From positions 1,093,687 to 1,157,686 of the forward strand of contig NZ_CP035425.1 in assembly GCF_006740685.1 (NCBI RefSeq): a DNA stretch of 64,000 nt. The letters run 5' to 3'. Source of the stretch: Candidatus Nitrosopumilus sp. SW (GTDB lineage: Archaea > Thermoproteota > Nitrososphaeria > Nitrososphaerales > Nitrosopumilaceae). The position numbers and the translations under genes are program-made. The notes beneath the pieces were generated by a model. That model worked only from the letters and a program-made list of their open reading frames with translations, was not told the origin of the DNA and did not search any database. Positions 4,805 to 8,631 of the stretch are shown piece by piece (within the stretch, counting starts at the first letter, position 1; each line of letters starts with the position of its first letter).

Positions 4805-5641
4805 TTGGTTAGTCAGGGAATTCTAATAGGAATTGCAGTTGGAGTATTTTTTGCAGGTATAGGAATAGGATATGCTGCTTTACAACCAACAACAACACCA
4901 ATGATGAATTCTCAACAAATGATGAATGATCCTCAACAAATGAACCAGTGGATGACTACAATGATGAATGATCCACAAGCAATGCAACAAATGCATGACA
5001 TGATGATGTCTGATCCTCAACACATGAACCAGATGATGGGTCCAATGATGACTACAATGATGAATGATCCAGAATTGCAGCAACAAATGATGAATCACAT
5101 GATGAATAATCAGGCAATGATGGACTATATGATGACTAATCAAGACATGATGAACATGATGATGGGAAGTAACATGATGATGGGAGGTCACATGATGGGT
5201 TCTGGAATGATGAGCCAAGGAATGATGAGTTCTCAATCTTTGCAAACAATTCCTACAGATGCAGAACCTCAAACTAGAACATTTCAAATCAGTATGGAAG
5301 AAGTAGAGTTTTACGCTGAAGTTGAAAATGAACAAGGAGAAGAAGAGATTGCATTTGTTGAATTACATGTATGGGAACCAAACATCATAATTGTTAATCA
5401 AGGCGATACTGTAGTTCTTGAAATTACTAATCCAAGAAAACATGCACACACATTGTCAGTTCCTGCATTTAATGTAAATTCAGACATGCTTGAACCCAGA
5501 GTCGGAGCAGATACTGTAACCTTTGTTGCAGATACTCCAGGAGTTTTCACATTCTATTGTGGACTGCCTTACAATCCCGACAAACTGTACTGTGATCCTG
5601 ATCATAATATGATGACAGGCACTTTGATTGTGTTAGAATAG
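4805..5641 (+). CDS. Membrane-anchored Met-rich copper protein with CuA-like cupredoxin domain
   Basis: 278 residues, TTG start. Residues 5-25 form a hydrophobic anchor. Residues 33-141 hold 42 methionines, mostly in MM pairs spaced by Asn, Asp, Gln and His, a typical Cu(I)-binding composition. The C-terminal domain (about 155-278) is a cupredoxin: His215 in HTLSVP, then Cys252, Cys263, His267 and Met270. The order C-x3-H-x2-M and the HxxxVP context match the CuA site of cytochrome oxidase subunit II or N2O reductase, but the first Cys is 11 residues before the second instead of 4. Likely faces the outside and binds or transfers copper or electrons. A nitrosocyanin-like or type 1 centre is the alternative. 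Confidence 0.8.
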   Translation: MVSQGILIGIAVGVFFAGIGIGYAALQPTTTPMMNSQQMMNDPQQMNQWMTTMMNDPQAMQQMHDMMMSDPQHMNQMMGPMMTTMMNDPELQQQMMNHMMNNQAMMDYMMTNQDMMNMMMGSNMMMGGHMMGSGMMSQGMMSSQSLQTIPTDAEPQTRTFQISMEEVEFYAEVENEQGEEEIAFVELHVWEPNIIIVNQGDTVVLEITNPRKHAHTLSVPAFNVNSDMLEPRVGADTVTFVADTPGVFTFYCGLPYNPDKLYCDPDHNMMTGTLIVLE

Positions 5642-5714: not shown

Positions 5715-6311
5715 TCATTTTACGGTAACTGAAGCATTTGCCCATGGATGAATCATGCAGAAATAATCATACTCTCCAGACTCTACAAATTTGTATGAAA
5801 AAGTTTCACCAGACATTATTAGCGCACTATCAAACTTTCCATCAGGACCTTCAATGATATTTCCACTAGTTACAGTATGTGCTGAAGAATCATCATTTCT
5901 CCAAATAATTTCTGCGCCTTTGAAAATTATCAATGATGAAGGCTCGTAACATTTGTCAGCCTCTTCACATCCTGGAACAGATGTTCCTGCTGGAATGCTT
6001 ACCAATCTTGAAGGTAGTTTTGAAGTAGTAAACTCTTTGGCTGTTTCACTTAGATCTTTTGTTTCTTTTATGACATCCTTTGCTTTTTCAGTTACATCTT
6101 CAACAGCTTTAGAACCTGATTCAGATAGTTCTTTGATTTTTTCAACTGCGGGCTCTATGTCTTTTTTTAGTTCTTTTGCTTGTTCTATGGCAGGAGTAAC
6201 TGCTGTGGGTATGTCTGAAGGTGAGCCTGTCCCGCCAGTCATTGTAAACCCTACTGCAGCAGCAACAATTGCCACTGCAACTACCATACCCATTTTATCC
6301 ATAGAACTCAT
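5715..6311 (-). CDS. Amicyanin/plastocyanin-like membrane-anchored protein lacking the axial Met
   Basis: 198 residues. An N-terminal hydrophobic anchor (10-28), a charged helical stalk rich in Lys/Glu (about 40-95) and a C-terminal blue-copper domain. Copper ligands visible: His145 (SSAHTVTSG), Cys185 and His188 in FCMIHPW. The position three after His188, Met in the two relatives at 7993 and 30082, is Ala191 here, so the axial ligand is missing. Two Cys (115 and 121, GCEEADKC) shared by all three may form a disulfide. Probably a periplasmic-side electron carrier or copper binder. The open frame starts at 6311; an ATG at 6302 would fit the TATA-like TTTATTA near 6330 no worse. Confidence 0.82.
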   Translation of the reverse strand: MSSMDKMGMVVAVAIVAAAVGFTMTGGTGSPSDIPTAVTPAIEQAKELKKDIEPAVEKIKELSESGSKAVEDVTEKAKDVIKETKDLSETAKEFTTSKLPSRLVSIPAGTSVPGCEEADKCYEPSSLIIFKGAEIIWRNDDSSAHTVTSGNIIEGPDGKFDSALIMSGETFSYKFVESGEYDYFCMIHPWANASVTVK

Positions 6312-7992: not shown

Positions 7993-8631
7993 CTACTCTA
8001 CAGTAATGATGCCTTGCATCCATGGGTGTACAATACAAAAGTAGTCGTATTCAAATGCAAGATCTAACTTGATTGAATAGGTCTCATTTGGCATCATTAA
8101 TCCACTATCAAACAACCCATCAGGACCATCATGTGGATTACCTGAAGTAATTGTATGTGCTACGGTATCGTGGTTTGTCCAGATTATCTCTGTACCTTCA
8201 GCTGTTGTTATGTCAGCTGGAATAAAACAAGTGTTGGATTCTTCACAACCTGGTACTCCTGTATCTGAAGGTATGCTGACTAGTTCAAGCAGTTTTCCAT
8301 CAGTTTGTTTGACAACTGGTGGAACATCCGGAATTATGTCTTCTACTACATCTGCAGTATTTTCAACTAATTCATCAACAGTGTCTGCTTCGACTACTGC
8401 CTCCCCTAATTCTGAGGTAATAATCGATGCTTTGTCAACTACATTTGATGCTCTTTCTTCAGTAATCTCTGGAATATTTTGTAGCTCGTTTGTTGTACGT
8501 TCAATGATGGCTTGCCCTTGTGGTTGAATTGAACCCTCTTGTGACATGCCAAGAGATCCTGCAAATGCTATTGCAATTGCAGTGATTGCTACAGACAATG
8601 CGATTCCAAATTTGTCGTTTGAATCTTTCAT
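7993..8631 (-). CDS. Amicyanin/plastocyanin-like membrane-anchored copper protein
   Basis: 212 residues: N-terminal anchor (about 8-28), acidic helical stalk (40-110), then a cupredoxin domain. Type 1 copper ligands are complete: His159 (VAHTITSG), Cys199, His202 and Met205 in FCIVHPWM, the short amicyanin-type loop C-x2-H-x2-M. The conserved GCEESNTC pair (Cys129/Cys135) is present. Expected to be an electron carrier on the outer face of the membrane, in line with the reliance of ammonia-oxidising archaea on copper carriers instead of c-type cytochromes. Same architecture as the gene at 5715, which lacks the Met ligand. Confidence 0.87.
   Translation of the reverse strand: MKDSNDKFGIALSVAITAIAIAFAGSLGMSQEGSIQPQGQAIIERTTNELQNIPEITEERASNVVDKASIITSELGEAVVEADTVDELVENTADVVEDIIPDVPPVVKQTDGKLLELVSIPSDTGVPGCEESNTCFIPADITTAEGTEIIWTNHDTVAHTITSGNPHDGPDGLFDSGLMMPNETYSIKLDLAFEYDYFCIVHPWMQGIITVE

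Follow-up and report, generated by a model that had tools for sequence, protein, structure and literature searches.

A 278-amino-acid protein encoded in the stretch of Candidatus Nitrosopumilus sp. SW DNA that was analysed (64,000 nucleotides; the window) is genuine and conserved, and represents a natural variation on the CuA/cupredoxin theme, in which two cysteines are separated by ten residues (C-x10-C). Judging from the sequences of this protein and its relatives, the methionine-rich part preceding the cupredoxin domain is a separate, shuffled module. The whole may constitute an anchored electron-transfer protein that combines a CuA-derived centre with a Cu(I)-buffering arm, a tentative reading that falls somewhat short of an even chance. 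The gene is composed as follows:

4805 to 5641, forward strand: whole gene (278 amino acids; start codon TTG, stop codon TAG)
4805 to 4900, forward strand: N-terminal hydrophobic membrane anchor or signal, residues 1-32 (MVSQGILIGIAVGVFFAGIGIGYAAL), assigned from the sequence
4901 to 5227, forward strand: methionine-rich module, residues 33-141, containing 42 methionines
5264 to 5638, forward strand: cupredoxin domain, residues 154-278 (PF13473; AlphaFold2)

The coordinates and strand given in a preliminary description of this DNA were borne out, as was its count of 42 methionines in 109 residues (residues 33-141; 46 methionines in the whole protein), a frequency with a binomial P of about 3e-38 at a background of 2.5% methionine. 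In an alignment of orthologs, the TTG start codon of the 4805-5641 reading frame paired with the ATG (MVSQG...) of the relatives. The dN/dS ratios versus four relatives ranged from 0.04 to 0.16 in both halves of the gene, indicating purifying selection. As synonymous change far exceeded non-synonymous change in both halves, the methionine-rich region is maintained as protein. A chance or artefactual origin of the reading frame was ruled out by these ratios and by the orthologs. A histidine-rich open reading frame in antisense (4880 to 5335, reverse strand) is not a gene, as it merely arises from ATG codons, which read CAT on the opposite strand.

The cupredoxin domain contained His188, His213, His215, Cys252, Cys263, His267, Met269 and Met270, and hence the five residues singled out in the preliminary description (His215, Cys252, Cys263, His267 and Met270). 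Its main positions are:

5366 to 5368, forward strand: His188, invariant, in the strand ahead of the first ligand segment; may be an additional ligand
5447 to 5449, forward strand: His215, invariant, counterpart of the upstream histidine ligand of CuA and type 1 sites (H-x36-C)
5558 to 5560, forward strand: Cys252, invariant, at the end of strand 7, in the position of the first CuA cysteine and of the type 1 cysteine
5567 to 5587, forward strand: insert of about seven residues (255-261, PYNPDKL) relative to canonical CuA, located by MAFFT and in the models
5591 to 5593, forward strand: Cys263, invariant, with a C-x3-H spacing like the second CuA cysteine
5603 to 5605, forward strand: His267, invariant
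5609 to 5614, forward strand: Met269-Met270, the latter in the CuA axial position

The ligand spacing was H-x36-C-x10-C-x3-H-x2-M, with a loop of 19 residues from Cys252 to Met270; the widened gap between the cysteines and the exact second half of the motif, both reported before, correspond to x10 followed by C-x3-H-x2-M. All ligand residues of the canonical CuA motif, Hx34Cx3Cx3Hx2M (PMC6189053), were there, but their spacing differed. When canonical CuA and type 1 domains were aligned together by MAFFT, a single gap of seven residues appeared between the two cysteines of CuA, the remaining loop being in register. Position 270 was occupied by Met, Gln (L012) or Ile (L111), and Met269 was replaced by Tyr in the distant homologs (G435 and G364), so that each of the adjacent methionines is replaceable in some relative; this pair, like the invariance of His188, had been overlooked. 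The domain departed from type 1 blue copper sites, which have a single cysteine and a short C-x2-8-H loop, in its invariant second cysteine and its C-x14-H spacing. The C-x10-C spacing matched none of the described copper sites found, and the open-access literature held nothing relevant on C-x10-C CuA sites or on methionine-rich proteins of ammonia-oxidising archaea (AOA). At L058:886-1821 (forward strand), another CuA-like domain carried its insert after the second cysteine (C-x3-C-x9-H-x2-M).

Profile searches assigned the domain to PF13473 (Cupredoxin_1), with 28.7 bits for the domain alone versus a cut-off of 27 (25.6 bits for the whole protein). The scores for COX2 (PF00116; 16.3 bits versus a cut-off of 22), CoxB (TIGR02866; 21.8 versus 147.7), NosZ (TIGR04246; 34.7 versus 625) and nitrosocyanin (TIGR03096; about 24-26 bits, 23.7-25.5, versus 142.85) were below their cut-offs. 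The curated profiles that aligned end to end through the loop were mainly those of NosZ and CoxB CuA domains; the match through the loop was to these two, and the domain body resembled NirK domain 1 and nitrosocyanin. Structure prediction of the cupredoxin domain, as advised in the preliminary description, yielded a confident fold with a less confident loop. Indeed, AlphaFold2 models (11 orthologs) displayed an eight-stranded cupredoxin with a mean pLDDT of 87.9, confidence within the domain being lowest in the loop (pLDDT 66-77), with a helical turn at 258-260 in the first model and a beta bridge at 257-262 in the second. In these models, the extra residues would form a turn or a small hairpin. 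Such a compact detour might keep the cysteines near each other; this is weak evidence because of the low loop pLDDT. The closest solved fold was nitrosocyanin (Z 11.9, rmsd 5.4, Foldseek rank 1), besides the N-terminal cupredoxin of Hyphomicrobium NirK (Z 11.7, rmsd 2.0) and the CuA domain of NosZ (Z 10.9, 2.3 A over 93 residues); ba3 CuA was also among the structural matches (Foldseek, VIA). As the Z values of nitrosocyanin, NirK and NosZ are close, they do not discriminate a dinuclear from a mononuclear site.

Residues 154-278 most likely hold a CuA-derived copper centre, with Cys252, Cys263, His215 and His267 as putative ligands and a weak axial residue at position 270; the seven-residue hairpin between the cysteines should leave both facing the same site. 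A first argument for such a centre is the presence of the same x10 cysteine pair in all complete members, from Nitrosopumilus and Nitrosarchaeum to G435 and G364, a type 1 site requiring one cysteine only. A second one is the C-x3-H-x2-[MQI] register, as in CuA. Thirdly, the axial Met is variable, and sister proteins likewise have an axial Gln in their C-x3-C-x3-H domains. Lastly, the NosZ and CoxB profiles match through the loop, with a single seven-residue insert. Of the two alternatives considered in the preliminary description, these sequence features support the CuA-like site with its lengthened loop. The red or type 1 copper site stays in contention because nitrosocyanin and NirK domain 1, the best matches of the domain body, are both mononuclear. 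Besides this likeness, the CuA-derived centre is opposed by a body-only tree (79 columns, low support), which neither joined the family to the CuA domains nor held the family itself together, and by the fact that many conserved cysteine pairs are disulfides. Even in PmoD, which is able to form CuA, the crystallised protein had a disulfide within the molecule (PMC6189053).

The likeness of the body would be accommodated by a mononuclear site of the type 1 or red copper kind whose ligand loop is very long. One copper would be bound by Cys252, His215, His267 and Met270, and perhaps His188, with Cys263 in a second-sphere or structural role; the protein would still carry electrons, or else provide a site for a small molecule (NO). 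This arrangement is possible, albeit rather improbable. It agrees with nitrosocyanin as the first-ranked structural match, with the resemblance to domain 1 of NirK and multicopper oxidases, and with Cys252 lying exactly at the type 1 cysteine position, but it leaves the invariant Cys263 and the C-x3-H register unexplained. Furthermore, the 14-residue gap between Cys and His exceeds the known type 1 loops, which to our knowledge comprise 2-8 residues and never as many as 14. It is favoured by chimeric proteins in which a CuA scaffold accepts type 1 loops as long as 15 residues as working sites, with a reorganisation energy that rises with loop length (PMC7480511). A precedent for unusual mononuclear sites in the genus is Nmar_1307 of N. 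maritimus (cited in PMC6790972).

A search for the loop insert in other thaumarchaeal proteins, another suggestion of the preliminary description, retrieved the x10 cupredoxin from 16 genomes of Nitrosopumilaceae, which belong to Nitrosopumilus, Nitrosarchaeum and a third genus (three copies being truncated or split), and from two genomes outside this lineage but within the same phylum (G435 and G364). The x10 spacing was kept in every complete relative found, and His188, His215, Cys252, Cys263, Asp266 and His267 were invariant across the entire set. As the gene was present in only about 16 of the 250 family genomes, it is not essential to AOA respiration. The ortholog in G076 (L044:4972-5672) was broken into two frames, reflecting an assembly error or a decaying gene. 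In G435 and G364, the x10 cupredoxin had the N-terminal anchor only, without the methionine-rich part, and was encoded in the same gene order in both:

L133:8982-13493 and L134:6067-10307: operon of the x10 cupredoxin, a DsrO-like 4Fe-4S protein, an NrfD-family membrane protein and a C-x3-C-x2-H protein

In G435, the DsrO-like protein scored 188.7 bits with the NCBIfam DsrO profile (cut-off 200) and the NrfD-family protein 118 bits with PF03916; the fourth operon protein is cupredoxin-like and cysteine-rich, with the C-x3-C-x2-H motif and an Ig-like tail. Fe-S/NrfD pairs (CISM family) exchange electrons with quinones, so that the simplest role for the x10 domain is that of an electron carrier. 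The operon looks like an undescribed quinone:copper-protein module and supports the electron-transfer reading.

The methionine-rich module was built from the unit (N/S)DPQxMxQMxxMMx, with a period of 14 residues, and was predicted as a chain of short helices of low confidence (pLDDT about 32-67). It occurred in 33 of the 95 genomes of the genus that were searched, including in proteins without the x10 domain, and the N-terminal anchor recurs in other methionine-rich proteins of the genus. Anchor and module occurred alone (L090, L092, L097), with helical-looking tails (L085, L087, L088, L093, L094, L104) or with a plastocyanin-type domain (L089). Longer exported methionine-rich proteins with a plastocyanin-type domain at the end were found too (L098, L099), as were exported proteins of about 437-468 amino acids with 128-137 methionines (about 30%, up to 31%) in several Nitrosopumilus genomes, including G006 (L095, L096, L100, L101). 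The N-terminus of L095 corresponds to the 'WING-49' segment named in NCBIfam. In G071 and G109, methionine-rich segments preceded a CuA domain of canonical spacing (C-x3-C-x3-H-x2-Q) and an EB_dh domain (ethylbenzene-dehydrogenase-type haem domain):

L061:754-2493, forward strand: methionine-rich part, canonical-spacing CuA with axial Gln, and EB_dh
L059:787-2457, reverse strand: methionine-rich part, canonical-spacing CuA with axial Gln, and EB_dh

The fusion of the module to canonical CuA with EB_dh and to plastocyanin elsewhere supports the copper reading. A Cu(I) role, for which the preliminary description proposed a sponge, is thus indirectly supported, mainly because the module joins three copper domain types.

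The location of the gene differed between species, and no conserved neighbourhood pointing to copper supply was found in Nitrosopumilus, the neighbours differing outside the closest relatives. In Nitrosarchaeum, the gene adjoined cation-efflux genes; in G051, the ortholog was without the methionine-rich module and adjoined genes for a CuA-EB_dh protein, a DsbD/CcdA-like protein and a thioredoxin. Next to the gene, the window encodes a pair of anchored proteins of plastocyanin type with the motif C-x2-HPW (5715-6311 and 7993-8631, both on the reverse strand). Both were missing from the matching interval of L036 and L040, which are close relatives; there, the next gene is pterin-4a-carbinolamine-dehydratase-like (named here from sequence). 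The possibility that the protein is an oxidase subunit was discarded, as CoxB is encoded elsewhere in this genome with an ordinary CuA site (C-R-E-Y-C-G-L-I-H-Y-N-M). Copper supply to the oxidase as a specific role was not supported, given the variable gene location, the CuA site of CoxB itself and the distant homologs in a quinone/Fe-S operon; service of the 278-amino-acid protein to the respiratory chain, as envisaged in the preliminary description, is possible.

It is unlikely that the protein is a copper chaperone or store without a redox-carrier role, the cysteine pair cycling between dithiol and disulfide and, together with the methionine-rich module, binding and handing on Cu(I). The module itself, the cation-efflux genes nearby in some genomes and the module-less G051 ortholog near DsbD/CcdA-like and thioredoxin genes would fit such a role, but the distant homologs occur without the module among Fe-S and NrfD genes, and the histidine ligands of the cupredoxin are all invariant, like those of electron carriers. 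Still less probable is a module that does not bind copper, but acts as an oxidant sink (methionine sulfoxide cycling), as methionine-rich periplasmic scavengers do in bacteria, or as an STI1-like hydrophobic-binding chaperone, given short methionine-rich helices starting with N-D or N-P that resemble STI1 repeats. Catalase is missing from most marine AOA (PMC6593220), in line with an oxidant sink, but MsrA and MsrB were detected in the genome only as frames of 159 and 140 amino acids, lengths that suggest cytosolic proteins (molybdenum MsrP was outside the search), the phmmer match of the low-confidence helices to STI1 repeats (2llv, E 0.09) is below significance, no Pfam family covers the module, with nothing significant for STI1 or another identity, and the fusion to three copper domain types is left unexplained.

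In the preferred reading, the protein would be a membrane-anchored, extracytoplasmic copper electron-transfer protein, and the methionine-rich module (residues 33-141) would serve outside the membrane as a local Cu(I) buffer or donor; for the 278-amino-acid protein, we infer copper binding, dinuclearity, electron transfer and Cu(I) buffering. A more elaborate version is doubtful, namely a phylum-wide dinuclear CuA-type centre with a ten-residue spacer between the cysteines, possibly with His188 as an additional ligand, that receives electrons from an NrfD-type quinone/Fe-S complex in distant relatives and is metallated by a methionine-rich Cu(I) reservoir in marine ammonia oxidisers. In AOA, electrons are transported by copper proteins instead of c-type cytochromes. 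If true, the newly spaced, conserved CuA-like loop would indicate that CuA geometry tolerates a large natural insertion, and would provide a test in nature of loop-length effects, which until now have been approached through engineering alone. The module is a candidate means of holding Cu(I) at the cell surface in copper-dependent archaea.

Compared with the CuA sites of NosZ and of subunit II of ba3 and aa3 oxidases, the protein shares the cupredoxin fold, the upstream histidine, the two cysteines, the C-x3-H-x2-M register and the GT(L/I)(I/V)V ending. However, those sites have x3 between the cysteines and x34 before them, whereas x10 and x36 occur here, in a separate membrane-anchored protein that scores far below the NosZ and CoxB cut-offs. 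Nitrosocyanin, the red copper protein of Nitrosomonas, has the closest solved fold and a similar body sequence, but it has one cysteine, a Glu at the position of His215 and a short C-x2-H-x4-H loop. In the exported proteins CueO and PcoA, a methionine-rich Cu(I)-binding region is joined to cupredoxin domains; in contrast, the module described here is N-terminal, consists of 14-residue repeats and is shuffled among C-terminal domains, and the protein is not a multicopper oxidase. PmoD/AmoD, which occurs in methane- and ammonia-oxidising bacteria and is reportedly lacking in archaeal ammonia oxidisers, is likewise a membrane-anchored cupredoxin with two invariant cysteines and a non-canonical CuA site, but it has a Cx7MxHxnC motif at a dimer interface, no loop ligands and a C-terminal anchor (PMC6189053). 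Compared with that description, the present sequence contained neither the Cx7MxHxnC motif nor the C-terminal transmembrane helix. Finally, the CuA-EB_dh proteins of related archaea (L061, L059, L136 and L031) resemble it in the methionine-rich segments before the CuA domain (in L061 and L059), but differ by their normal CuA spacing and additional haem-binding-type domain.
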